Positions 4,536 to 19,485 of a stretch of DNA of 20,148 nt are shown piece by piece. A program made the position numbers and the translations under genes. Location of the stretch: positions 1-20,148 of the forward strand of contig JAFGNI010000709.1 of the NCBI GenBank assembly GCA_016927095.1, written 5' to 3'. Every line of letters starts with the position of its first letter. Positions within the stretch are counted from its first letter, which is position 1. Origin of the DNA: Anaerolineae bacterium (GTDB lineage Bacteria > Chloroflexota > Anaerolineae > B4-G1 > SLSP01). Below the pieces are notes generated by a model. The model was given only the letters and a program-made list of their open reading frames with translations, ran no database searches and was not told where the DNA came from.

Positions 4536-4856
4536 ATGATCTTCGAGATTCTGAACAATGCGGCGGATCGGGGCGAGCTTTTGCTGGTAGATGGTGGGCT
4601 ATGCCATTGGCATCTGCGGCGCGATGGGCAGCTTACCATTCGCGAGATCCTGGTGCTCCCGGAATACCGGGACGAGGGTATTGGCGCGGCGATGATTGAC
4701 CAGCTCAAAATGACAGCTGGCGCATCATCGCTCTTTGCGCGGTGCCCCGCTGGGCTACCCGCCAATGGCTGGTATAGTGCCATAGGATTTGAGTGCGAGG
4801 GCACGGAGACGACGCGATCAGGACGGGAGCTGAACCTCTGGCGCCTCCAACTCTGA
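4536..4856 (+). CDS. GNAT-family N-acetyltransferase
   Basis: A 106-aa compact GNAT. The beta4 strand plus motif A is visible as LTIREILVLPEYRDEGIGAAM (residues 33-53), with the acetyl-CoA pyrophosphate loop R45-x-x-G48-x-G50. Motif B follows around residues 77-88 (NGWYSAIGFECEG). The C-terminal strand ends NLWRLQL. It is shorter than usual (about 140-180 aa), with a reduced N-terminus. ATG 4536 follows AGGAGG (4525-4530); ATG 4531 is out of frame and stops after two codons. It overlaps the next gene by 64 nt. The substrate is unknown. The neighbour suggests a modified nucleobase or tRNA, but a protein or small-molecule acceptor is equally compatible with the sequence. Confidence 0.85.
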   Translation: MIFEILNNAADRGELLLVDGGLCHWHLRRDGQLTIREILVLPEYRDEGIGAAMIDQLKMTAGASSLFARCPAGLPANGWYSAIGFECEGTETTRSGRELNLWRLQL

Positions 4857-5491
4857 TCTATTGCGCTGACGGTAACAGACGCCTCGCTCAGATCGCTATT
4901 GAGGCAGGGTTCCGCTACGGCGCGCGGTTGCCCGGCACGATCTATTATCCGATCTGGTTTGCCGACCAGGATTGGCGGAAGCCAAACCGGGCAGGCTACA
5001 TGACGGCATTGGCGGAGCATCGCCCGGTGCAGGCGACGGTGCTGGATTTAGAGCGGGAGGAACAACTCAGCGAGGTGCTAGGATGGGCGGAGGAGGCGGC
5101 GCAATATGTTGAGCGAGTCGTCATTATCCCCAAGGCTTTTGGTATCATCGACCGGATACCAGCGCATATAGCTAGTGCTGAGGTTGTGCTGGGATATAGC
5201 GTACCAACGCGCTACGCCGGAACAGAGGTGCCCGTATGGGAGTTTGGGCGGCGCCCAGTGCACTTGCTCGGCGGGCGCCCGTCGGCTCAATTGCGCCTGT
5301 CGCATTATCTGAACGTGGTTAGCGCCGATGGCAACTATGCTAATCTCAAGGCGACACAGTTTTGTCAGTGGTGGGACGGCAATCGCTGGCGCCAGCTTTT
5401 AGATGATAATGGTAACGTGTGGGGACGGGACGCCATATATGAAGCATTCAGGCGGAGCTGTGAAAGCATCATCGCGGCCTGGCAATCATGA
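4793..5491 (+). CDS. phage TGT/DpdA-like protein (putative base-exchange enzyme)
   Basis: This resembles a phage family I recall as DUF6610/'queuine tRNA-ribosyltransferase-like', thought to have a transglycosylase-type TIM barrel. Relatives (DpdA) swap guanine for 7-deazaguanine bases in DNA. Visible blocks: YCADGNRRL (23-31), TVLDLE with D85, VVIIPKAFG (109-117), LGYSVP (133-138), VHLLGGRPSAQ (156-166) and VVSADGN (175-181). These alternating strand-plus-polar-loop blocks fit a barrel whose Asp residues could be catalytic. I cannot see the classical TGT zinc cysteines. GTG 4793 is the only conventional start before Met70. The homologous part begins near residue 21, so an atypical start near 4853 is possible. 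Family recall is from memory and the enzymatic role is inference. Confidence 0.72.
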   Translation: MRGHGDDAIRTGAEPLAPPTLIYCADGNRRLAQIAIEAGFRYGARLPGTIYYPIWFADQDWRKPNRAGYMTALAEHRPVQATVLDLEREEQLSEVLGWAEEAAQYVERVVIIPKAFGIIDRIPAHIASAEVVLGYSVPTRYAGTEVPVWEFGRRPVHLLGGRPSAQLRLSHYLNVVSADGNYANLKATQFCQWWDGNRWRQLLDDNGNVWGRDAIYEAFRRSCESIIAAWQS

Positions 5492-5845: not shown

Positions 5846-6062
5846 CGAGATCGGCGTGACTGTCCGCACATCAGACCTGAGGCCGCTTTCGCCGTTGGCG
5901 CAACGCTATGTCTGCGCGCCGGCCTGGCTGCGCTGGCTGCGGCCGCGAGCGCGGAGGGCGTGGCGTAAGGAACGCATCTTGCGGATGATGGAGTTAGAGG
6001 ACGCTGTGATGCGGGCACTATGGAGCGAGGTGGACCATGACCGCCATGCCGATGCGCCGTAA
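5832..6062 (+). CDS. hypothetical basic protein, 76 aa
   Basis: Unrecognised. GTG 5832 is supported by GGAGG (5821-5825) at 6 bases. The middle is strongly basic and Trp/Arg-rich (residues 29-48, LRWLRPRARRAWRKERILR), followed by an acidic helix. This charge pattern could bind nucleic acid or a membrane surface, but no family is visible. It overlaps the preceding gene by 14 nt and the following gene by 26 nt, so it is part of a three-gene coupled unit. Confidence 0.65.
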   Translation: MTTLDEIGVTVRTSDLRPLSPLAQRYVCAPAWLRWLRPRARRAWRKERILRMMELEDAVMRALWSEVDHDRHADAP

Positions 6063-6384
6063 GGTACGCTCCCCGCTGCTCTGGCTCGTGCTGGCGGCGC
6101 TCCTGCTCGTGGCGCTCCCCACGCTCAACGGGCACGCCACCGCCCGCCACGGACGGACCGCCGCGTCGGCCTGGCGCTACGTCTCGCGCTGCGACCCCGG
6201 CGACCCGCGCCTGTGGTGCGGCGAGCAGGAGGACGGGCGCGAGGTGCGCATTCTGGAGCTGGACAAGCTGCCGGGCAAGCCGCGCACCTGGGCCATCGTC
6301 ATCACTTGCGCGGGCGGGCTGGTGACGGCGTTCCTGTCGCAGCACCGGCAGAGCGTGGAGAAGATCAGGGAGCGATGCTCATAG
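6037..6384 (+). CDS. exported or membrane-anchored cysteine-containing protein, 115 aa
   Basis: The N-terminus has a basic start (MRRKVR) and a hydrophobic segment at 13-29 (PLLWLVLAALLLVALPTL), a signal peptide or anchor. The mature part carries C52, C61, C91 and C114, a HATARHG stretch at 33-39, and two likely strands (REVRILEL at 68-75; TWAIVITCAGGLVTAFLS at 84-101). The layout, with a His/Arg start, a short Cys loop, a 'W-x-I-x-I...VTAF' core and a helical tail, recalls a small phage/plasmid family of unknown function. That resemblance is from memory. ATG 6037 follows GAGGTGG (6025-6031). The stop overlaps the convergent minus-strand gene by 6 nt. A role in lysis is conceivable but nothing specific supports it. 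Confidence 0.72.
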   Translation: MTAMPMRRKVRSPLLWLVLAALLLVALPTLNGHATARHGRTAASAWRYVSRCDPGDPRLWCGEQEDGREVRILELDKLPGKPRTWAIVITCAGGLVTAFLSQHRQSVEKIRERCS

Positions 6385-6591
6385 CGCCGCTGTGGTGATG
6401 GCGCGGATGGTCCCGTTGCAGTTGACCTGGATCTCGGCGTCCGTCGTCTGGTAGCCGTAGTCGCCGTGATGCGGTAGCGTCGTAGTGGTGAAGTCGATGG
6501 CGCTGGTGCCCCGGTAGTGGGTGAGGCGCGGTCCTTCCAGCGCCGCAACCCGCTCCCTTAGCGCGTCAAGCGCCCGCAATAAGTCGTTCAT
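6379..6591 (-). CDS. small coiled-coil phage protein, 70 aa
   Basis: Last gene of the tail operon. Residues 1-20 (MNDLLRALDALRERVAALE) form a short coiled coil. The rest is beta-prone and Thr-rich, with one Cys (NCNGTIRAITT), a design common in small trimeric tail-tip or fibre accessory proteins. ATG at 6591 is preferred over a TTG at 6639. The extension before Met17 is Cys/Arg-rich and coincides with the broken gene read in another frame. It overlaps the end of that remnant (stop at 6566) by 26 nt and the plus-strand gene by 6 nt at its 3' end. Function unknown. Confidence 0.6.
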   Translation of the reverse strand: MNDLLRALDALRERVAALEGPRLTHYRGTSAIDFTTTTLPHHGDYGYQTTDAEIQVNCNGTIRAITTAAL

Positions 6592-6747
6592 TCTCGCAAT
6601 CCAGTCGCACGTCCTCGAACACCTGCCCCTCCCCGTCAATCGAAACGATGGCGCTCCACACTATCGCAGAGAATTGGTCGCTACCCGCACGCGCGTTTCA
6701 GCATAGAAGCTCTGTATCCGAGCGTCATCGGAAGTAGGGGGGATTAG
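6566..6747 (-). pseudogene. frameshifted remnant of a small tail-region gene
   Basis: Two adjacent frames join into one protein-like sequence. The first frame reads LIPPTSDDARIQSFYAETRV from 6747. It runs into a TAG at 6663-6661 if continued. Just after GTA (6684-6682) the sense passes to a second frame, reading DQFSAIVWSAIVSIDGEGQ, then VFEDVRLDCENERLIAGA, and ends at TGA 6568-6566. A single missing base near 6681 would restore the join. The first frame also lacks any ATG, GTG or TTG back to its upstream stop, although AAG at 6750 is one change from ATG. The product looks like a small beta-rich protein that would sit naturally between the 1096-aa enzyme and the 70-aa gene. Real decay or a sequencing error are both possible. 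Confidence 0.6.
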
Positions 6748-9700
6748 CTTAGGCGTGCCCTGACTGCCTCTAGGATGTGGGTTTTGCCTTCAATGGTCCA
6801 CTGGTCCCCGGCCCAGCGGTAGAGCGCCAGGCCGGCGATGCCCATATACTCGGCTGCGATGTGGGCCCGCTTGACGATCTCCGCGGCGCGCGCGTCGTCG
6901 ACCCAGCCCCAACTCCCCTCGCCACCGTCGGTCCAGAGGTGATTGAACTCCGTGACGTAGACCGGGAGGTCGCCATATCCTGCCGGCAGCGCCTGCAGGA
7001 GGGCCGTCACGCTCCCCGGATAGTTGAGGTACTGCCACGTGAGCGGTTCATCCTGGAACTTCGCCGTCGACCCGACCAGCGCCGGATCCGGGCCCCTGAC
7101 ATAGCCGTGCGCTGCGACGAACTCCGCCCCGGAGATGGTCCGGTAGATCGCACCCAGCCAGCTTCGCGGATCGCCGGCCTGGGCATTGTAGGGATCCAGG
7201 GCCCCCACCGCCATCCGGGTGTGGAGGTCGGCGACGCGATCGCGGATCATGTTGTAGGCGGCCGCCACATCACCGGGCTGCAGGCGCCCGTCGCGGGGCC
7301 ATTCCCGCGGATTGTTGGCTTCGTTGCCGATCGTGTAGCCCCACACGCCCTGCGATCCGCGGATGGTATTGGCTGCCGCATCGATGAAGCGTCCCCAGTC
7401 CCGGGAATAGGGTAGGGGCAGCGTGCCCGCCCCGCCGCAGTCCGTGCTCCAAGAATAGCGCAGGTTCAGGATCACCCGGATGCCATCGGCCTCTGCCTGC
7501 CGCGCGTCGACCGCGACCGGGGTCCCGCCCAGGAAGAGCGGCCGCACGATCAGGCCGTTCCGGAGCCCATTGTCCTGCAGCCACTTGAGCCCGGTCCCGC
7601 TCTGGCCGTCGTGGTCATTGAAGCCCAGAAAGACCGGCTCTGCCGGCGGCTGTGCGGGTTCATCATCAACCTGCTTGTATTCGACGGCGGCATAGATGGC
7701 CTGTTCCAGCGTCCGATCTGGCCCGTAGCTCTCCCGCAGCCGGTCCACTGTGCCCCTCCAGGGATCCATGATCTCGATGTCATTGCCTTCTTCGCGAAGC
7801 GCCAGAACGAAGTGACTATCGAGCGCCGATGTCGCCGGCTTGAAGTCCACCTGGATGATAGTCGGGCCCATGCTCAGGAGCCGCCGCACCGTGGCGAGGT
7901 CCGCCGTCTGCCCTTCCTTCCGCCAGGTGTGGTAAGCGACGAAATCCCAATCGGGCGTCATCTCCGCCGGCTTGGCGATCCACAGCCGGCCCGTGTCGGT
8001 GAAGCCCTCATGCTCGTTAAGCCACGTCACCAGCTTCAGCGGCGTCATCTCCGGATCGGTCAGCGTCAGCAGGCTCGCGAAGGCCGTCACCAGGCAGCCG
8101 GCCCCGCCCATCGTGTAGTCGCTCTCCCCGAGCTTGATCCCCGCCCAGCGCGCGTCGCGCTGCGAGAACGGGACCGGCCCCGGCTCTTCCGGTGGCGCCG
8201 GCACCACGACGGTCGCACCCGGGTTCACCCGGTCCTTCACGCTCTCCGCGTAACTAATGAACGCCGGATAGATGGCCTTGAAGGCGCGATTGTAGTCCTC
8301 CCACCCTTCGACGTCGCTCACGGTGTACATATGCGCCATCGCGTAGGGGTCCTCGGCCAGCGCTGCATCTGTGGCCCGCACCCAGTCCATCAGGTCGAAG
8401 GTCTGATCTGGCAGCAGGTGCCGCCAGGGCCCGCACTCGGTCAGCAGCATCGGGATGTCGAGCATCCGCGGCAGAATGTGCTCATCATACAGGAACCGGT
8501 GCCGCAGCAGCAACCACGTCATATCATCCGGCACGCGGTGATCGTGGTAGCTGTGCAGCGCGATGGCGTCGCCGCGCTCGGCGATCAACTCGAAGACCCC
8601 CGCGTCGGCGATCGGTTGCCAGTAGGTGAGATCTGACGGATTGCCCGGCCCAAAGGAGAAATGTGCCAGACCCAGCCATCCCGGCGCCACTTCCATCGCG
8701 CGCTTGACGAACCGCGCCAGTTTCGCGGCGCCGGCGAGGTCGGGGATGTCCTGCTCATTGATGTACTCCGCCCAGTCGAACTTTCCCTCCCAGGGCTCGA
8801 GGATCTTGGCCAGCGCCCCGATCCGCGCCTCAGCCTGGGTCTCCGGATCGCCGTTGTAGTCGAAGCCTTCCAGCTTCCCATAGCCGGGCCAATCGATCAG
8901 CCGCACAACCCGGTAGCGTGCCGGCATCTTGCCGATGTCGCCGATCGCCTGCAGCAGCTTGATCGTTGGCGACTGCAAGGTAGCGTGCAATTCCGGCAGC
9001 CCGCAGTTGCCGATCGCGTGCCAGCCCAGCTTCGTGCCCGTGGGGATGTAGGTGTGCGGCCGCCAGACGTCGCCATGCTCTTCATCGTCGAAGACGAGGA
9101 CCGTCTCCGGGTCCCGGTCGGCCACCCATTCGCGGTAGAGATCGCGATCGCCGGCCGGCAGGGGCCCGGCGTTGACCGTGTTGCTTTGCCATTCCCGCGG
9201 CCGTGTCGCTGCCGGCTGCACCGCATCATTCCACGAGGGCGTCACCGTCCGCAGCTCAGCCCGCCCGCGGTCGTAGGCCGTGTCGAGCTTCGCCGCATCC
9301 ATATACGTCGGGTCAGCCATGATCACATAGCGATCGTAGCTCTCTGCCGGCGGCTCTACCTCGACGGCGATCAGGTAGGCGTCATCGAAATAGGCATCGC
9401 AGTGCTTGAACGGCCACAGCACCGAGCTCCGCAGGAACACGGTCACAGTCTCGGCCTCTGCCTCGATCTCGAGTTCCGGGATCTCGGCATAAGCGTTGTA
9501 GATGTGCCGGCCCGGGCCCCAGACCACCGTGTCCGCCCACGGATCCGCCGCTCCGGTCGGATCGATCCCCACGCGGAACGTCACGTTCCGATCGCCGTCG
9601 TCGAGCCCCGGCGTGCCCTCATCGAACCATATGCCGCCGCAGCCCACGTTCGCCCCGGTGCTGCACCGCGGATCGTCCTGTGTCGAGCTCCAAGCGTGGG

Positions 9701-10034
9701 CCCAGCCGCCGGCCCGCAGCCGCGTTCCCGGCGTGATCCCGCTCACCGTCTGGTAGATCCCGGCATCGTGGATCCGATAGAAGGTGAACAACTTCAGCGC
9801 CCGCTCGCCGCTGTGAATGCGCGGTGGATCCAGATACGGCGCCTCACGGTTGATCACGTGCATCTCCGGCCGCCCATACCCGTCCGGATTCGCCAGATCG
9901 TGCGCCACCGGCCCGCCCTCCCACCAGAACGCCACCCACCCTTCCGGCACGAAGATCTCGCCGTACTCCACGCCGGTGTGCGTCCGGCGCGTCCAGCCGC
10001 CGTCGGTGCTGCCATTTGTCAACAAGTTCTGCAT
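6744..10034 (-). CDS. tail-associated multi-domain enzyme: jelly-roll, glycosidase barrel, C39-like peptidase, glycosidase barrel
   Basis: A 1096-aa protein with four modules. Residues 1-230 look like a carbohydrate-binding jelly-roll (paired strands, FDDAYLIAVE ending). Residues 235-605 resemble a clan-A glycoside hydrolase barrel, with acid/base candidate N426-E427 (EYINEQD) and nucleophile candidate E533 (LLTECGPW). A Pro-rich linker precedes a C39-type peptidase fold (622-770) with Q625, C647 (GAGCLVTAF), H741 (DSHFVLAL) and D757 (IMDPWRG). A second clan-A-like barrel (790-1096) has N904-E905 (TIGNEANN) and E1029 (VYVTEFN). It probably degrades host surface polysaccharide and peptide cross-links at the tail tip. 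The domain calls are motif-based and the substrates unknown. ATG 10034 follows GGGAGGT. No signal peptide or holin partner is seen, so a classical endolysin is less likely. Confidence 0.85.
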   Translation of the reverse strand: MQNLLTNGSTDGGWTRRTHTGVEYGEIFVPEGWVAFWWEGGPVAHDLANPDGYGRPEMHVINREAPYLDPPRIHSGERALKLFTFYRIHDAGIYQTVSGITPGTRLRAGGWAHAWSSTQDDPRCSTGANVGCGGIWFDEGTPGLDDGDRNVTFRVGIDPTGAADPWADTVVWGPGRHIYNAYAEIPELEIEAEAETVTVFLRSSVLWPFKHCDAYFDDAYLIAVEVEPPAESYDRYVIMADPTYMDAAKLDTAYDRGRAELRTVTPSWNDAVQPAATRPREWQSNTVNAGPLPAGDRDLYREWVADRDPETVLVFDDEEHGDVWRPHTYIPTGTKLGWHAIGNCGLPELHATLQSPTIKLLQAIGDIGKMPARYRVVRLIDWPGYGKLEGFDYNGDPETQAEARIGALAKILEPWEGKFDWAEYINEQDIPDLAGAAKLARFVKRAMEVAPGWLGLAHFSFGPGNPSDLTYWQPIADAGVFELIAERGDAIALHSYHDHRVPDDMTWLLLRHRFLYDEHILPRMLDIPMLLTECGPWRHLLPDQTFDLMDWVRATDAALAEDPYAMAHMYTVSDVEGWEDYNRAFKAIYPAFISYAESVKDRVNPGATVVVPAPPEEPGPVPFSQRDARWAGIKLGESDYTMGGAGCLVTAFASLLTLTDPEMTPLKLVTWLNEHEGFTDTGRLWIAKPAEMTPDWDFVAYHTWRKEGQTADLATVRRLLSMGPTIIQVDFKPATSALDSHFVLALREEGNDIEIMDPWRGTVDRLRESYGPDRTLEQAIYAAVEYKQVDDEPAQPPAEPVFLGFNDHDGQSGTGLKWLQDNGLRNGLIVRPLFLGGTPVAVDARQAEADGIRVILNLRYSWSTDCGGAGTLPLPYSRDWGRFIDAAANTIRGSQGVWGYTIGNEANNPREWPRDGRLQPGDVAAAYNMIRDRVADLHTRMAVGALDPYNAQAGDPRSWLGAIYRTISGAEFVAAHGYVRGPDPALVGSTAKFQDEPLTWQYLNYPGSVTALLQALPAGYGDLPVYVTEFNHLWTDGGEGSWGWVDDARAAEIVKRAHIAAEYMGIAGLALYRWAGDQWTIEGKTHILEAVRARLS

Positions 10035-10510: not shown

Positions 10511-11227
10511 TTACCAGAGGCTGTACAGGGTGTTAAAATACGTGCGTAGCGAGTCTACCTCAACAGCCGTCAATTCGCGGCTGTAAATTAGGTGCTCCGC
10601 TACAAGGCCATTCAGAGCAAACGCCGACGACCCGATCTTGTCATAGAACAGGCTGGCGATGGCGGTTACGGACGATCCATGATCTGTGCTGTTGGTGTAG
10701 CGATAGATGCGACCATTAGATGCGCTATGGCTGGCGATTTTGAGATAGAACGTCGCGGCGGTCATGGCAACCGTGGTCGTATCACTGCCGACGTACCATG
10801 TAGAGCTGTATTGCAGGTATGGATAAGCCACGCCACTGTAGATCAGAACTGCGTCATTGGCCGCAGCAACGTCCTTGGACCAAACAAGGATGTAGGTGGA
10901 TTCGGTTAATTCGTGGTACGTTGAGAATCCCACATAGTCCGAGGCAAAGTCAATCGCCGGGAGGCTATTAATCTGATTCGTGCGGAACGTTGGTTTGTAG
11001 CCCGCATCCGCCTGTGTCATGTGCCGGGCGTTACCGGACTGGTCGGTGAGTTGGCTCACCGCATCCGTATCGCTATAACCAGTCTCCAGACGTGCCGCTC
11101 CCCAGAAATACAAGTCCGCTATCTGGGTGGGGCTAAAGGTGCCATGCGATTTGGTGTCGATCAGACCTGGTATGCGCCAGGGAGAGCGACCGCGTACTGC
11201 GTGTGGATTATCCACGAACCAACTCAT
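10511..11227 (-). CDS. concanavalin-A/LamG-like receptor-binding protein
   Basis: A 238-aa beta-sandwich candidate. Residues from about 30 onward match the phage/bacterial pattern 'FSPTQIADLYFWGAARLE', then 'QLTDQSGNARHMTQ' and 'SLPAIDF', ending in an 'AEHLIYSRELTAVEVDSLRTYFNTLY' helix-cap. This is typical of LamG/laminin-G-like or pentraxin-like lectin modules in phage fibres. It probably binds host glycans or serves as the distal receptor-binding tip. ATG 11227 overlaps the preceding TGA (ATGA). The gene is less GC-rich than the core tail genes. Ligand unknown; the fold call is from pattern recognition. Confidence 0.78.
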   Translation of the reverse strand: MSWFVDNPHAVRGRSPWRIPGLIDTKSHGTFSPTQIADLYFWGAARLETGYSDTDAVSQLTDQSGNARHMTQADAGYKPTFRTNQINSLPAIDFASDYVGFSTYHELTESTYILVWSKDVAAANDAVLIYSGVAYPYLQYSSTWYVGSDTTTVAMTAATFYLKIASHSASNGRIYRYTNSTDHGSSVTAIASLFYDKIGSSAFALNGLVAEHLIYSRELTAVEVDSLRTYFNTLYSLW

Positions 11228-13734: not shown

Positions 13735-14493
13735 TCAGTTGAACGGATCGGTAGATCCGCGTGCCCATCCACCAAAGACAGCCAGCGTCCCGGCGCTCAG
13801 TCCATCCCAATATCCAGCATATCCATCACCGCCACCGCTGGCGTTACCATATAGATAGCAGTTCCATGCGATGATGATGCTTCCCAGCGGTAGCTCGACC
13901 CCATAGGCATCCCCCGTGCCCGTGTTCTCCACCTCGATGTTGCACCCGTACAGATGCGCTGTGCCTGACGCACTGTTGCTGAGACCCGTGACTTCACCTG
14001 CGCTAGATTCAGAGCGTCTAATCGTCAAGTTCTCTAGCGTGCAGCCACTGGCAACTGTTATCTTTCCGGTCAGCACTGTAGCTGCACGGCTTGCGCCAAC
14101 GTAGTGCACCCCCGCTGCCAGCGTATGGTCCCCGCTGATCGTCCCCGCTGGCAACTCCACCACATCCCCGCTCGCCGCCGCAGCCGACGCTGCATCCAAC
14201 CCCGCCCCGGAGTGCGCATACTCCGCCATCACCGTCCCATCGCCGTGCTTCAGCAGGATCACATTCCCCGCCCGCGCGATCGTATAATTCGGGCTCGCTC
14301 CCGACAGATCGATGTCCGCCCCCGCGGTGAGCTCGATCTCCTCCAGGATCTCGATATACGTGATCTCCCCATCGCCGCTGCCCGGATCCGCCGTCGGCAG
14401 CGCAGCATAGCCCTCCAGGTCATCGAGCCGGCGCTCGAGCTCCAGCACCCGCTCTAGGAGATTCTTGGGAATCGAGACGTATTCCAGACTCAT
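13735..14493 (-). CDS. right-handed beta-helix (pectate-lyase-like) tail fibre protein
   Basis: A 252-aa protein. Residues 8-27 form a coiled coil (IPKNLLERVLELERRLDDLE). Residues 40-105 carry a short beta-rich module (ADIDLSGASPNYTIARAGNV). From about 108 to 235 the repeating strand pattern (GDVVELPAGTISGDHTLAAG, TLENLTIRRSE, LYGCNIEVENT, IAWNCYLYGNAS) fits a right-handed beta-helix of the pectate-lyase superfamily used in phage tailspikes. I see no obvious catalytic acidic pair, so binding without cleavage is possible. ATG 14493 overlaps the hub gene's TGA (ATGA). Confidence 0.8.
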   Translation of the reverse strand: MSLEYVSIPKNLLERVLELERRLDDLEGYAALPTADPGSGDGEITYIEILEEIELTAGADIDLSGASPNYTIARAGNVILLKHGDGTVMAEYAHSGAGLDAASAAAASGDVVELPAGTISGDHTLAAGVHYVGASRAATVLTGKITVASGCTLENLTIRRSESSAGEVTGLSNSASGTAHLYGCNIEVENTGTGDAYGVELPLGSIIIAWNCYLYGNASGGGDGYAGYWDGLSAGTLAVFGGWARGSTDPFN

Positions 14494-15563
14494 TCGGGCT
14501 CTTCCTCCGCCTCATCCTGATAAACCCACGGCTCAACGCTGTGCGGCTCCTCTACCACCAAATCGCATGCCCCCGTGGCCGGATTGAACTCCCGGGCGAT
14601 CACCCGCAAGGTGCCATCGAAGCCGCTGAAGCCGTAACTCGGTATGATGGCGTTGACCGTGTCTCCGAGGTCGTAGGCCGCGAAGAGCCCCGGCTCGTGA
14701 TCCGTCACCGGTAGCGTGAAGATCTTCCGCGGCTGGCTGTTGGTATCCAGGGCATTGCGAGCGTGCATCTCCAGCGTGCTTTGCTCGCTCACCCCGCTGT
14801 GTATTTTCCCCACCTCCCGCAGGCCGTAGGTCGCGATGCTCTCGTTGTCTCTTGCCGCCACTACCACCCGTTCCGTCCCCCAGGTCGAGCCCTCACCGAC
14901 GGCATAATAGCTGTTGATGATCTGCCCCTTCTCCGCCAGTCTGAACCCCGCCGCGATGTTGCGCCCCTCGACCAGGGCCACGCTTGCGCTCTTGTCGTCA
15001 CCGGCCTCCTGGTAGAGGCTGGCCCGGAAAAGAATGCGACCGTTATCGATGTAGGGGATGAACCGGAAGTCGCAGCGCTCCATCCGCCGCAGGCTGTAGT
15101 CGAGGACGTACCAGAGGCTCTTGTAATGGTAGCGGGGCCAGTGCGGGTGTCCGCCCATCCAGATACTGCCGAAGGTGATGCCCAGCGGGTCCTGTTCCTC
15201 CTCCCGCCGCAGCAGCTCGCGGAAGATCAGGCCCGCCGGCCGCTCGTAGAAGGCGTCGTTCTTGCGGGTGCAGCGCCATTGCAATAGCCACGGCAGCTCG
15301 TAGGCCGTCATCGCGACCATGCCGTGGCTCCAGTTGCGCGGCATGTCCAGCACGCCGCCCCAGTCCGGCAGCCCGTTGTCGAACGCCAGATAGAGCCGGT
15401 TCCCGATGCGCAGATTTTCCTCGGTCGCCTTGGCGTCGCTCAGCGCCAGCGAGATCGCCGTCCGCCCGATCCCGTTGAGGATCCAGGTCGTGCTTTCTAC
15501 CCGTGCCTGGACCTCCGTCAGGATCTGCCCAAACCGGTCTCCGATCAATGTCCTAACGAGCAT
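14490..15563 (-). CDS. tail hub/minor tail protein (ReqiPepy6 gp37-like)
   Basis: A 357-aa protein resembling the siphovirus minor-tail/baseplate-hub group sometimes annotated as ReqiPepy6 gp37-like. It opens MLVRTLIGDRFGQILTEVQ, then 'TWILNGIGRTAISLALSD', 'LRIGNRLYLAFDNGLPDWGGVLD', a long mixed middle, and a late OB-like strand set ('GLFAAYDLGDTVNAIIPSYG', 'LRVIAREFNPATGACDLVVEE'). The opening strand pattern matches hub proteins that cap the tail tube below the distal tail protein. ATG 15563 lies 2 bases after the upstream stop. A longer frame to 15725 has an implausible Arg-rich extension overlapping the distal tail gene. The function fits its place after the tape measure and distal tail genes. 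Confidence 0.82.
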   Translation of the reverse strand: MLVRTLIGDRFGQILTEVQARVESTTWILNGIGRTAISLALSDAKATEENLRIGNRLYLAFDNGLPDWGGVLDMPRNWSHGMVAMTAYELPWLLQWRCTRKNDAFYERPAGLIFRELLRREEEQDPLGITFGSIWMGGHPHWPRYHYKSLWYVLDYSLRRMERCDFRFIPYIDNGRILFRASLYQEAGDDKSASVALVEGRNIAAGFRLAEKGQIINSYYAVGEGSTWGTERVVVAARDNESIATYGLREVGKIHSGVSEQSTLEMHARNALDTNSQPRKIFTLPVTDHEPGLFAAYDLGDTVNAIIPSYGFSGFDGTLRVIAREFNPATGACDLVVEEPHSVEPWVYQDEAEEEPE

Positions 15564-15565
15564 CG

Positions 15566-17455
15566 TCAGTAGTACCTGGCACGGAACTCTGTCGTAACGG
15601 TCACGTTCCCCGTCCCGGTGTCGTCGAAGCGCAACGTGTTGTTGCCCGGTAGCAGACGCAGCCATTGCCGGCGCGCCGTCGACAGGCTCAGCGCCTGGAA
15701 CTGCCGGCTGTCGTCTTCCAGCCACGTCACGGTGCGGTTTTCCGTGTCGATCTCGATCTCCGAGTCGACGTCCATCACAAACGCCAGCGTAAGCGCTTCG
15801 CCCGTCGTCTGGTTCGTCAGCGTGCAGGCCAGCTCGTAGTTGCCCTCCTCGGCGTTGACGCTGACGAGGGGAACCTCATCCGTGTTCAGCGAGACCGTAA
15901 CCGTGCCGGCCTCGAAGTCGCCGTTATAGGCATACAGCACCAAGGCGATGTAGTCCGCCGGATCCCAGTCCGCGACCGCGGCGCTCTCGCTCCACCCTTC
16001 CCACGTGTTGTCGGCCGCCAGAGGATCGTCGACGCCCAGCCACTGCAGCTGCTCGCTCCACCAACTGTCCCCGCGCACCCAGTAGCGCAGCCGGAAAACG
16101 AACTCGTCTTTGTTTTCGGCCCGCGCCTGACCGTCCGCCCATGCCGCGTTGACAATACCGCACGGGTTGTAGAGCTGCCATCCCTGCGCGAAATGACCGG
16201 TCGTTGTGTCGCGGAAGGCGCCGATCGCCGTCCACGGCGTGGCCCAGGTGCGCTGTGTCGCTGTGTAACAGCCGCCGTAATACGGCCCGGTTGCCCAGCC
16301 GATGTGTTCCCAGGAGGCGGCCTGCATGTACATCACGTCGCCGAACTCTTCGTAGTGCCATTCTTCGTTGTCGCTGTCGTCGAGCTCGAAGGCCGGTATG
16401 GAGTAGTTGTCCACCGTCGGCGCCGTGGCCGCGGCGTTGCCGTAGAGAATGTAGACGTCGTGCTGGATCCACCAGACGTCATCCCCCACGGTGTGCGCGC
16501 CCATGCTCGTGCCCTTGGCCGCCCGCGTGATGCCCGTCAGTTGCTTGTCCGTCAGATTGCGCGCGGTGTAGGTGAAGGCTTCATCGTCGATCAGGACGAT
16601 GCCGCTTTCGGGCATCAGCGCCAGCTCCTCCTCGTCATCGACCTCGATGCTGGCGATGGAGCCGGCGCCGGCGATCGCCGTCGCCAGCGTGAGCTGCGGG
16701 GCCCGCGCGAAATAGAGGTTGAACCAGATGCCGGTGGCCACGGTGTTCATATCGTCCAGCCAGCGGTCGATCTGCAGGTTGTCCGAGAGAATGCGCAGAT
16801 CGTCGCCGTCCGCCTGCATCTTGCCCGCCGTGACCAATGCGTCGGTGTCGAGCTCCGCCCGCACCGGATACTTGACGCCGGCGTTCTCCGATCGCCACAC
16901 CACCGGCACCCAGCGCCGGTAATCGTATCCGCCGGTCTTGCCGCTCGTCGGCTTGATGGTGTAGACGGGATAGGCTTCGTCCTCCCCGCCGTTGGCCACG
17001 ACGTGCGTCTGCCCGCTGGCCGTGAGGTTCCACGTGTCGGAGGTCTCGGTCTCCGCCCGCCAGCGCACGTCGCCGTCCACCACCAGTGTCGCGACGAAGA
17101 CTTCCTGATGCCGTGGGTCGCTGTAGAGCCGCAGTTCCTCGCACAGCGCATACACGTACATCTCGACGTCAGCGTGGTTCTCGCAAAGCAGCTTCTTCGG
17201 GGTCTCATCCTCCGGATCGAACCACCTGAAGAGCTGGGTCCGCAGCGTGTGGACGTTGTCATAGTCGGTGATCTTCATGATCAGCGCGATCTTCTGCGAA
17301 TTGCGTTGCAGCGCCGAGACCACCGGATAGGCGCCGATCCGTTCCAGCGTGGCCACCGTCGCCGACGGTAACCCGGGCGCCGTGCCCTGCACAAAGTCGA
17401 CCTCGTAGCTGCCCGCGAAGGCGTGGCCGTCGTAGCTGATCACATCTTCAATCAT
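15566..17455 (-). CDS. distal tail protein (Dit / Sipho_tail family), enlarged
   Basis: A 629-aa protein. The N-terminal 1-135 region has the Dit-type start (IEDVISYDGHAFAG, then YPVVSALQRNSQKIALIMKI). The C-terminus (545-629) has the characteristic closing strand set, with LLPGNNTLRFDDTGTGNVTV near 601-620 and FRARYY at the end. Between them lie a widely used phage module (272-328, with GIVLIDDEAFTYTARN and 'LTGITRAAKGTSMGAHTVGDDV') and a Trp-rich jelly-roll-like domain (330-530). It is more than twice the size of a basic Dit (about 250 aa), an 'evolved' type that may bind carbohydrate. ATG 17455 overlaps the tape measure stop (ATGA). Confidence 0.84.
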   Translation of the reverse strand: MIEDVISYDGHAFAGSYEVDFVQGTAPGLPSATVATLERIGAYPVVSALQRNSQKIALIMKITDYDNVHTLRTQLFRWFDPEDETPKKLLCENHADVEMYVYALCEELRLYSDPRHQEVFVATLVVDGDVRWRAETETSDTWNLTASGQTHVVANGGEDEAYPVYTIKPTSGKTGGYDYRRWVPVVWRSENAGVKYPVRAELDTDALVTAGKMQADGDDLRILSDNLQIDRWLDDMNTVATGIWFNLYFARAPQLTLATAIAGAGSIASIEVDDEEELALMPESGIVLIDDEAFTYTARNLTDKQLTGITRAAKGTSMGAHTVGDDVWWIQHDVYILYGNAAATAPTVDNYSIPAFELDDSDNEEWHYEEFGDVMYMQAASWEHIGWATGPYYGGCYTATQRTWATPWTAIGAFRDTTTGHFAQGWQLYNPCGIVNAAWADGQARAENKDEFVFRLRYWVRGDSWWSEQLQWLGVDDPLAADNTWEGWSESAAVADWDPADYIALVLYAYNGDFEAGTVTVSLNTDEVPLVSVNAEEGNYELACTLTNQTTGEALTLAFVMDVDSEIEIDTENRTVTWLEDDSRQFQALSLSTARRQWLRLLPGNNTLRFDDTGTGNVTVTTEFRARYY

Positions 17456-19485
17456 CCCTCACCCCCGCCGCCGGCCAGCCGGTAGAGCTCCGCCAGGAAG
17501 CCCTCGCGGTCCTGGACCCCCTCGACCGTCAGTCCATAGATCACGATCGTGCCGCCGCCCCCCGTCCCGGTCCCCGCCTGTGGCTGCGGCACCAGCTGCA
17601 TGGTGTTATAGAGCGAGCCTTGTGTGGCCTGCAGCAGCGCCTCGCCGGCCGCCAGCGCAGCCCTGCGCAATCGCGGCAGCGCATCCTCGATGCCGGCGCC
17701 GATGCCGGCGACGAACGGTTCACCGATGATGTCCGCTGCCTGCTTCGATGGCGACTGAATCCCTAGGAAGCCCTTCGCCGCATCCAGGGCCGCCCTGGCC
17801 GCCCGCTTCGCCGCGTTCTTGATGATGTCCAGTCCGGCGCTGATGCCCTTCGCGATGCCCTCCAGGATGTTCCGGCCCACGCTGCCCCAATCGGTGTTGC
17901 GGAAGAAGTCTTTGATCGCCGTCCAAGCCTTCTCGCCGATCTCCTTGATCTTGGCCCAGCCTTCGTCCCAATACTGCCGCAGTTTCTCGCCGAATCCGCG
18001 CCAATCTCCCTCGAATGCCAGCCGGAATGCGCTGAATAGGGTAGTGAACTGTCCCTTGAACCACTCGAAGATGGCGACGACCTTGTCCCAGATCTCCTGA
18101 GCCTTGGCCATGATCGTTGCGCCATGCTCGGCCCAGAACGTCTGGATGGCCGTCACGACGTTGTTGAAGATGGTCCGGATCGTCTCCAGTGCCTGGGGGA
18201 TGAAGGTCTGCAGGAAGGTCCACACCTGTTCGCCGATATCGCGGATCCCGAGGAAGTTGGTCTCCCACGCCGTCCGCAGTGCCGCGACTATGGCGATGAC
18301 TGCCACGAAAACGGCAATGATGCCGGCAACATGGGCAAGTAGGGGGAGAAACGCCGCCGCTGCGACGCCGATCGCGATCCCCAACGCGATCAGCACATCC
18401 TGCAGTTTGACGTTCTCCGTCACCCACGCCACCACCGGCTCGATGGCTGTCCAGATCTGATCCACAAACGTGCGGATGCCGTCGACGACGCTCATGATCT
18501 TGTCGGCGACCTCCGGCCCGAAGATCTGCCCCAGCGCGATCTTTAGCGCATCCATTGGCGCCACACCCACATCGAGCATCCACAGGAAGTCCTGGAACGC
18601 CCCCACCACCGTCGCGATCGCCGGCGCCACGGTGTTCTGCAGCACGTCCACCAGCGGCGGCAGCACCCGGTCTGCCAGGTCTGCCACGATCTCCAGCACC
18701 CCCGATAGCGCCGGCAGGAACGCCATCCCGATCTGGTCCTTCACGTCCTGGAACCGCGCCCGCATCTGGGCCAGCTTGGCGTTGGCGCTTTCGGTCACAT
18801 CGGGCATAGCCGCGGTGTTCGCTGCCAGCTTCTCCAGCGCCACATTCATCATGCCCGCTTGCAGTTGTGTCTTGTCCAGTGCCGCAGCCTCCACGCCGAA
18901 CATCTCCGCGGCCCGGGCCGTCGCCTCCGCCTGGCTCACCTGGATTCCCAGGTTGTCCAGGATCATCGGGGACAGCCGGCCCACACCGACGACCAGGCTG
19001 TCCATCAGGAAACCCATATCCTGACCGGTGGAGGCCGAGACCTTGGAGAGATACTGCATTGCTTCGGGGAGTTGCACGGCGAAGTCCGTCGAGACGAGGC
19101 TCGCCGCCTTGTTGAAGGACAGCATTAGGTCGCGCTGGGAGATCATCCCCGCGCTGCCCTCTTGTAGCGCCTGGATCATCGCGTCGCCGCCAACGCCGGC
19201 GCTCTGGGCGAGGCCGTCGAAGGCGTCCCGGATGCCTTCCACCGGCGCTGCGTCGATCGTGATCTTGCCCAGCGCCGCGCCCAACCCGGCCACCGCACCC
19301 GCGGCCACGCCGATGCCGGCCAGGGCCCCGGTGCCGATGGTCTGGAGGTTGCTGACCGCGCCTGACGCGATGCGCTTGACGGCGCTGTCGACCTTGCCGC
19401 GTGCCTGTGCCAGATCGCCGTCGAGGCTCTCCAGCGTCGCGCGTACCGCTACATTGGCGCGTCCTAGTGTCGCATCAACGCCCAT
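17452..19485 (-). CDS. tail tape measure protein
   Basis: A 677-aa tape measure that sets tail length and is ejected with DNA. The N-terminus is helical, followed by a Gly/Ala-rich hydrophobic stretch (50-72). Long amphipathic helices occupy most of the body. A strongly hydrophobic region lies near 360-402 (LIALGIAIGVAAAAFLPLLA). Trp/Phe-rich helical repeats follow (EIWDKVVAIFEWFKGQFTTL, then GWAKIKEIGEKAWTAIKDFF). The FLGIQSPSK motif near 574-582 and a Gly-rich tail are typical of siphovirus tape measures. At about 1.5 angstrom per residue, a tail of roughly 100 nm is expected. ATG 19485 overlaps the chaperone frame by 11 nt. Confidence 0.92.
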   Translation of the reverse strand: MGVDATLGRANVAVRATLESLDGDLAQARGKVDSAVKRIASGAVSNLQTIGTGALAGIGVAAGAVAGLGAALGKITIDAAPVEGIRDAFDGLAQSAGVGGDAMIQALQEGSAGMISQRDLMLSFNKAASLVSTDFAVQLPEAMQYLSKVSASTGQDMGFLMDSLVVGVGRLSPMILDNLGIQVSQAEATARAAEMFGVEAAALDKTQLQAGMMNVALEKLAANTAAMPDVTESANAKLAQMRARFQDVKDQIGMAFLPALSGVLEIVADLADRVLPPLVDVLQNTVAPAIATVVGAFQDFLWMLDVGVAPMDALKIALGQIFGPEVADKIMSVVDGIRTFVDQIWTAIEPVVAWVTENVKLQDVLIALGIAIGVAAAAFLPLLAHVAGIIAVFVAVIAIVAALRTAWETNFLGIRDIGEQVWTFLQTFIPQALETIRTIFNNVVTAIQTFWAEHGATIMAKAQEIWDKVVAIFEWFKGQFTTLFSAFRLAFEGDWRGFGEKLRQYWDEGWAKIKEIGEKAWTAIKDFFRNTDWGSVGRNILEGIAKGISAGLDIIKNAAKRAARAALDAAKGFLGIQSPSKQAADIIGEPFVAGIGAGIEDALPRLRRAALAAGEALLQATQGSLYNTMQLVPQPQAGTGTGGGGTIVIYGLTVEGVQDREGFLAELYRLAGGGGEG

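Follow-up and report, generated by a model that had tools for sequence, protein, structure and literature searches.

The 20,148-nucleotide stretch of Anaerolineae bacterium DNA analyzed here (contig JAFGNI010000709.1, positions 1 to 20,148; referred to as the window) is a siphophage-type genome fragment. The last gene of its minus-strand tail operon encodes a 1096-amino-acid protein in which a jelly-roll head is followed by two predicted glycosidase-like barrels with a C39-like cysteine peptidase between them. We consider it probable that this protein is a virion-associated (tail-tip) enzyme of an uncultured Chloroflexota siphovirus, which would penetrate the host envelope by cutting both envelope glycan and the peptide part of peptidoglycan. 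What is new here is that the slot between the barrels is exchangeable, and that its enzyme has been swapped repeatedly among related proteins.

The open reading frame (ORF) reported in a preliminary description of this DNA exists and lies on the minus strand; the plus strand in the same frame is interrupted by stops. A protein search that scored only the 7,999 candidates with the most words in common yielded a set of 54 proteins including the query, and residue conservation was counted in modules cut from these proteins. The relatives P0002, P0015 and P0017 are 39-47% identical over nearly the whole length, and identity to relatives reaches 73% over single stretches. A chance ORF or chance motif is ruled out by these homologues and by the invariant residues. 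The protein was modelled using AlphaFold2, with a predicted local distance difference test (pLDDT) score of 85 overall and 89 for barrel 1 modelled alone. The modules and candidate catalytic residues, all on the minus strand, are as follows, where CBM is carbohydrate-binding module, GH is glycoside hydrolase and HMM is hidden Markov model.

6744..10034, minus strand: whole gene, 1096 amino acids, last gene of the tail operon (from the ORF and its translation)
9360..10034, minus strand: jelly-roll module (JR), residues ~1-225, CBM-like fold from AlphaFold2 strands
9090..9341, minus strand: small module (SD), residues ~232-315, HMM match in 48 of 54 proteins, low pLDDT, function unknown
8223..9047, minus strand: barrel 1 (B1), residues 330-604, predicted clan GH-A-like (beta/alpha)8 barrel
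8754..8759, minus strand: N426-E427, candidate acid/base motif of B1 after beta4, 46/46 rows
8436..8438, minus strand: E533, candidate nucleophile of B1 on beta7, 46/46 rows
7674..8171, minus strand: putative C39-like cysteine peptidase, residues 622-787, from a sub-threshold match to PF13529 and intermediates
8094..8096, minus strand: C647, candidate nucleophile at the start of helix 647-656, 23/23 rows
7812..7814, minus strand: H741, candidate catalytic His at the start of strand 740-749, 23/23 rows
7764..7766, minus strand: D757, candidate catalytic Asp at the end of strand 752-757, 23/23 rows
6762..7628, minus strand: barrel 2 (B2), residues 803-1091, predicted clan GH-A-like (beta/alpha)8 barrel
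7320..7325, minus strand: N904-E905, candidate acid/base motif of B2 after beta4, 30/30 rows
6948..6950, minus strand: E1029, candidate nucleophile of B2 on beta7, 28/29 rows

HMMs built for the modules matched JR in 51 of the 54 proteins, SD in 48, B1 in 46, C39 in 23 and B2 in 30. Both barrels were present in 25 proteins (query included), with B1 before B2 in every one. The slot between them held a C39 module in 16 cases, Amidase_2 in eight and no recognised enzyme in one (P0046). M23 was found in four further relatives (P0032, P0039, P0040 and P0043), none of which is a two-barrel protein by the HMMs. The preliminary description had called a pair of barrels flanking a peptidase unusual. This is correct for sequenced phages, since 50,697 phage records gave no match at the E-value limits applied, but not for the large protein collection, where C39 or amidase lies between the barrels in 24 of the 25 two-barrel proteins.

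Pairwise comparisons show how the modules have been recombined. With P0003, which carries an amidase where the window protein has C39, the window protein shares 74% identity in JR, 69% in SD and 71% in B2, yet just 24% in B1. Against P0002, identity is 64% in B1 and 35% in JR. Module trees were built for 23 two-barrel proteins, excluding P0025 (no JR match) and P0046. The window protein, P0003 and P0004 form a clade on the B2 and JR trees (support 93 each, not starred), and this clade is rejected on the B1 tree (approximately unbiased (AU) test, p 7.5e-6). On the B1 tree the window protein pairs with P0002 (support 100), a pairing that the test rejects for B2 (9.2e-5) and, with less force, for JR (0.019). 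A single clade of all amidase-type proteins is rejected for B2 (AU p 4.2e-6), JR (3.2e-34) and B1 (1.6e-52). On each of the three trees the middle module must have changed at least five times, and larger trees need at least nine (B2, 30 rows), nine (JR, 50 rows) and eight (B1, 46 rows). The groups tested were named after the first trees had been seen. Since the module trees conflict and a single amidase clade is rejected, the swaps must have happened repeatedly.

All the catalytic candidates of the preliminary description (N426/E427, E533, C647, H741, D757, N904/E905 and E1029) were found at those numbers, as were its Glu-Glu spacings of 106 residues in barrel 1 and 124 in barrel 2. The AlphaFold2 model also bears out the TIM-barrel folds and the layout it proposed, with the acid after beta4 and the nucleophile on beta7 in both barrels by strand count. 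In the model, B1 is an eight-strand barrel at 336-570 in which E427 follows beta4 (421-423) and E533 lies on beta7 (529-536). B2 is likewise an eight-strand barrel, at 802-1071, with E905 following beta4 (899-902) and E1029 on beta7 (1025-1032). N426, E427 and E533 are also invariant in an alignment with five proteins of Chloroflexota genomes, and N904, E905 and E1029 in one with four such proteins. Both barrels thus combine a predicted (beta/alpha)8 fold with Asn-Glu after beta4 and Glu on beta7, and from this fold and layout we predict them to be clan GH-A-type enzymes with retaining hydrolysis.

Neither barrel could be placed in a family. The window protein matched no Pfam GH family at E≤0.1 and no NCBIfam GH model at E≤0.05, and barrel 1 of the relative P0028 reached Glyco_hydro_cc only below threshold (E 0.028, 14.4 bits against a cut-off of 21). 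In a VIA structure search the best rows for B2 were GH39, GH128, heparanase/glucuronidase (which we take to be GH79), GH51 and GH44, separated by no more than about 2 Z units; for B1, all 50 listed rows lay within 1.6 Z units. Among the rows listed, the barrels resemble the polysaccharide hydrolases PslG, GH39 and GH5, and they differ from PslG and from GH39, GH5 and GH128 of clan GH-A in having 7-17% identity to them; the whole-model rows were filled by B2, and families outside the listed rows are not thereby excluded. Because the top rows span a small Z range, no family is assigned to B1 or B2, and assignment to one known GH family was dropped with the profiles null and the VIA scores too close. 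A BFVD search returned matches mostly of 190-420 alignment columns to tail, CBM-annotated or unnamed proteins, given without model ranges, and added nothing sure on the barrels.

The conserved Asn gives some indication of the substrate. In clan A, the Asn before the acid/base Glu usually contacts the 2-OH of the sugar, and its conservation here would therefore make a hydroxylated sugar likelier than the N-acetylated backbone of peptidoglycan. On this basis a wall-linked or extracellular polysaccharide is the expected substrate of at least one barrel. We know of no peptidoglycan glycosidase in clan A.

For the middle module, AlphaFold2 gave an alpha/beta domain at 622-788 in which the Cys stands at a helix start and the His and Asp on following strands, a predicted papain-like layout. 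It shares with Peptidase_C39_2 (PF13529) the conserved Gln, Gly-Cys, His-Phe-Val and Asp-Pro positions. The C39-type peptidase of the preliminary description therefore stands in its conserved Cys, His and Asp on the expected elements, but not in family membership, as the window protein falls below the Pfam cut-off. The module is C39-like, and we do not call it a C39_2 member.

The invariant or nearly invariant catalytic residues in the barrels and the peptidase bear on a different view of the protein, in which it is non-catalytic in infection, the barrels being receptor-binding scaffolds and the C39 module a protease that processes itself to mature the tail protein. Exporter C39 peptidases cut the leaders of their substrates, and the reuse of catalytic folds as binding domains is known; P0046, with two barrels and no recognised middle enzyme, would also fit. 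Such residue conservation speaks against scaffolds, and a self-cleaving protease is not expected to be swapped for an amidase, so we regard this explanation as improbable.

The head agrees with the jelly-roll of the preliminary description. It is modelled as a beta-sandwich over residues 1-225, with a block pLDDT of 85-98 as far as residue 220. Foldseek matched CBM61 (2xom, E 1.5e-7), CBM4-2, CBM16 and a hyaluronan-binding module; these matches were assigned to JR by fold type, as the table carries no model range. The predicted fold is that of a CBM-like jelly roll, and JR has no Pfam CBM match in the window protein. SD, a fifth conserved module that had been overlooked, precedes B1 in seven of the 25 two-barrel proteins (including the window protein) and follows it in 18. 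In the window protein it has no Pfam or NCBIfam match and no confident fold in the AlphaFold2 model. An SD match was also seen at the end of another JR protein (L050:6958-8271).

The genomic position of the gene fits a virion-associated lysin. The minus-strand run leads from tape measure to Dit to Tal to the enzyme, so that the two clan-A-like barrels around a C39-like module, seen by profiles, conservation and structure prediction, do lie within a tail operon as had been described. The run includes the following genes.

17452..19485, minus strand: tape measure protein (phrog_58, E 3.9e-29), same gene run
15566..17455, minus strand: Dit-like distal tail protein (SPP1_Dit C-terminal domain, E 1.8e-9; phrog_5577, phrog_202)
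14490..15605 as searched (ORF 14490-15725), minus strand: Tal-like minor tail protein (phrog_1885, E 3e-12)
10511..11227, minus strand: virion-structural-like protein (phrog_10356, E 4.7e-12), encoded two genes upstream of the enzyme gene

The Tal-like ORF also has a sub-threshold match to Prophage_tail PF06605, 'prophage endopeptidase tail' (E 0.031, 14.4 bits against 31.3), and a LamG protein (E 2.2e-9) lies in the same run upstream of the enzyme. In one relative (L043/L044) the enzyme likewise stands at the end of a tail module. This placement is one reason for thinking the protein a virion component and not an endolysin acting in lysis. C39-like, amidase and M23 units do occur in modular lysins among the mycobacteriophage endolysins (PMC3314691), and no other wall hydrolase was found at E≤0.01 among the 18 other window ORFs scanned using Pfam. 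The gene, however, follows the tail genes tightly, on the strand opposite to the genes of the left part, and 1096 amino acids with a glycan-binding-like head argue against a lysis enzyme. As the window is only 20 kb, the endolysin may lie elsewhere, and we consider an endolysin role for this protein very improbable.

Multiple wall-cutting activities in one phage tail protein are known. Virion-associated lysins with peptidase domains are established, for example phi29 gp13 (M23) and Tal2009 of Tuc2009 (PMC9662197), and a bifunctional tail lysin, gp61 of phiMR11, is named in the title of a work that PMC5380687 cites. Like the window protein these are tail proteins with wall-cutting domains; the window protein adds two predicted GH-A-like barrels, a CBM-like head and an exchangeable C39/amidase slot. 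Mycobacteriophage Lysin A shares the combinatorial use of C39-like peptidase, M23 and Amidase_2 modules, but those proteins are endolysins, built around an amidase, muramidase or transglycosylase centre (PMC3314691). The window protein, in contrast, is encoded in a tail operon and has GH-A-like barrels around its lysin slot. That phage proteins shuffle fragments is a known theme (PMC10684548). Judged by title and the start of the abstract, no paper that we found describes the present architecture.

The whole protein had no match by tblastn in the 50,697 phage records at E≤1e-5, nor did B2 at E≤1 or the C39 module at E≤0.01. Scanning viral_contigs with the window protein gave no locus; P0002 gave one, on its own contig, and alignment A2 gave two, one of them the P0002 contig. 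For the tape measure protein the phage records held distant relatives only, with 17-54% of the query covered in the best 10 of 54 records.

Homologues of the barrels are also present in Chloroflexota genomes. When genome_contigs (84,980 species) was pattern-scanned with alignment A2, a single encoding locus came up, on a 4.2-kb contig in a metagenome-assembled genome (MAG) titled Chloroflexi bacterium, and genome profile searches covered the phylum of that MAG. The whole-protein profile matched 44 of 301 genomes of the phylum at E≤1e-3, many via weak one-module matches. The B2 profile matched 28 of 400 genomes at E≤1e-8, with 14 strong places (>150 bits) in 13 genomes. At 13 of the 14, C39, Amidase_2, SH3 or LysM lies in the same open frame as B2, found by Pfam in ten and by the C39 HMM alone in L004 (no Pfam match) and in L047 and L048 (outside the Pfam scan). 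The open frame of the remaining place, L091, is truncated where the contig ends; that of L097 is cut too, with a stop codon inside the barrel match. Four of the 14 places were rows of the B2 profile, and excluding them the proportion is nine of ten.

These genome proteins (L049, L054, L090, L092, L095 and others) are thus like the window protein in joining B2 to C39, Amidase_2, SH3 or LysM, and in having the same invariant B2 residues in the four aligned. They differ in that JR is found by HMM in none of the 14, with at least two frames cut by contig ends. They may be located in prophages; the neighbours in L047-L049, L054 and L057 gave no blastp match to other window ORFs. B1 homologues occur in Chloroflexota genomes as well, one with a Tat signal and one lipoprotein-like by eye.

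Some of these proteins are of interest in themselves. Five Chloroflexota genomes (L049:6350-9796 on the plus strand, L047, L048, L090 and L092) encode a ~1140-amino-acid protein with C39 and barrel 2 that looks like an uncharacterised autolysin. SH3 domains lie between the two in L049, L090 and L092, the three scanned using Pfam, and the N-terminal part of L092 has a weak resemblance, below cut-off, to transglycosylase SLT. Single proteins with B2 followed by two or three Amidase_2 stretches were seen at L054:2345-6427 (plus strand), L095:3432-5969 (minus) and L096:3391-5928 (minus). At L052:2514-5144 (plus strand), JR and barrel 1 share a frame whose C-terminus matches an Rce1-like CAAX protease (E 4.8e-7); there is a short stretch of unknown residues in between, so this may be an assembly join.

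The company that B2 keeps also helps to decide what the middle unit would cut. The protein could instead be a capsule or biofilm depolymerase, with the C39-like unit cutting a surface (glyco)protein, such as an S-layer or sheath, and not peptidoglycan. The barrels are both similar to polysaccharide hydrolases (PslG, GH39, GH5), the head resembles glycan-binding modules, and the peptides cut by C39_2 members are various. The peptidoglycan pathway is missing from some Chloroflexi genomes, and one encodes S-layer genes (PMC3971608). Against this account, the slot holds Amidase_2 in eight of the 25 two-barrel proteins and M23 is found in four relatives, both being families known for wall hydrolases, and B2 occurs with SH3, LysM and Amidase_2 in Chloroflexota genomes. 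We think it unlikely, though the least so of the alternatives.

Several observations weigh against a wall-penetrating enzyme of a Chloroflexota phage. Within the family, P0046 has both barrels but nothing recognised as an enzyme between them, and in 16 of the 54 proteins neither C39 nor Amidase_2 nor M23 was recognised; short contigs are the source of many of the 54, and truncation of some is probable. The module trees are quick ones with several long branches. The match to PF13529 (gathering cut-off 24) is weak, at E 0.082 and 13.9 bits for the whole protein and E 0.0031 and 18.5 bits for the C39 module alone. Four of ten C39 modules match it at E≤0.01, the best at 1.5e-5. The C39 profile found nothing significant among PDB sequences, the best row being 'Contact-dependent inhibitor A' (E 0.023), while the C39-like 3erv had E 0.34. 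The second upstream gene of the enzyme on the P0002 contig is a ribonucleotide reductase large subunit (L045:4681-6435, minus strand, phrog_84, E 2.9e-110), away from the tape measure gene, and tail-module placement is not seen there. As to the host, P0037 is named by its source as coming from an Acholeplasmataceae MAG, which is either counter to the proposed host or a binning error; the assignment rests on shared modules and a single contig, the 4.2-kb one that was binned with a Chloroflexi MAG, and the absence of peptidoglycan genes from some Chloroflexi, noted above, counts here too.

Part of this is offset by intermediates. L090 and L092 from Chloroflexota genomes match the C39-module HMM (76 and 74 bits) and pass the Pfam cut-off, which makes the C39 assignment firmer. 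That cut-off is reached by L090 (28.0), L092 (26.3) and L049 (24.0), all of which match the C39-module HMM; the window protein and its module differ from these relatives in scoring under it. With profiles searched in one phylum and the source of P0037 as it is, Chloroflexota are a probable host and not a certain one.

The remaining features of the window lie around or opposite the tail run. An 86-amino-acid minus-strand ORF of uncertain gene status (6379-6639) comes after the enzyme gene. Plus-strand genes encode an Erf/Rad52-like annealing protein, an HNH nuclease and a DUF6610 protein (4793-5491, E 1.1e-38); this last protein also matches the function-unknown phage families phrog_16059 and phrog_23010. 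An above-cut-off match to a GNAT acetyltransferase domain (PF13508, E 8.8e-7) was seen in a 106-amino-acid plus-strand ORF (4536-4856). Close to where the tail run ends, a 115-amino-acid plus-strand ORF (6037-6384) has a hydrophobic N-terminal stretch by eye and a weak sub-threshold DUF6232 match; it is possibly a membrane or lysis-related protein.

If the protein is indeed an envelope-penetrating enzyme of the tail tip, its jelly roll would bind a surface glycan and anchor the tail tip, and B1 and B2 would act as retaining clan GH-A-type glycosidases on envelope or wall-linked polysaccharide. The C39-like papain-fold unit would cut peptidoglycan stem peptides or cross-links; in relatives, M23 in the middle unit would cut peptidoglycan peptides and Amidase_2 the amide bond to muramic acid. 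Together the modules would open a path for the tail and DNA. That a single tail protein may cut both glycan and peptide, as the preliminary description proposed, draws support from the module swaps, and an exchangeable lysin slot would let phages fit their muralytic activity to the host wall and keep the barrel frame.

The new element is the tie between two unclassified glycosidase-like barrels with a CBM-like head and a repeatedly exchanged lysin slot. The swaps amount to a natural experiment, in which the constant barrels and head probably face a common host barrier and the middle unit varies. More tentatively, and less likely than not, B2 and possibly B1 may represent new clan GH-A families dedicated to the bacterial envelope, common to autolysin-like proteins of Chloroflexota and to phages. 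Should B2 cut the peptidoglycan glycan backbone, it would be, to our knowledge, the first such clan-A barrel; should it cut a wall-linked polysaccharide, it would point to an unknown wall polymer of Chloroflexota. On this view the phage protein would be a frame for swapped muralytic cassettes, like tool bits. The occurrence of B2 beside amidase, C39, SH3 and LysM in Chloroflexota points to an uncharacterised envelope glycan. This phylum has diverse walls that have received little study, and each module can be expressed and examined on its own.

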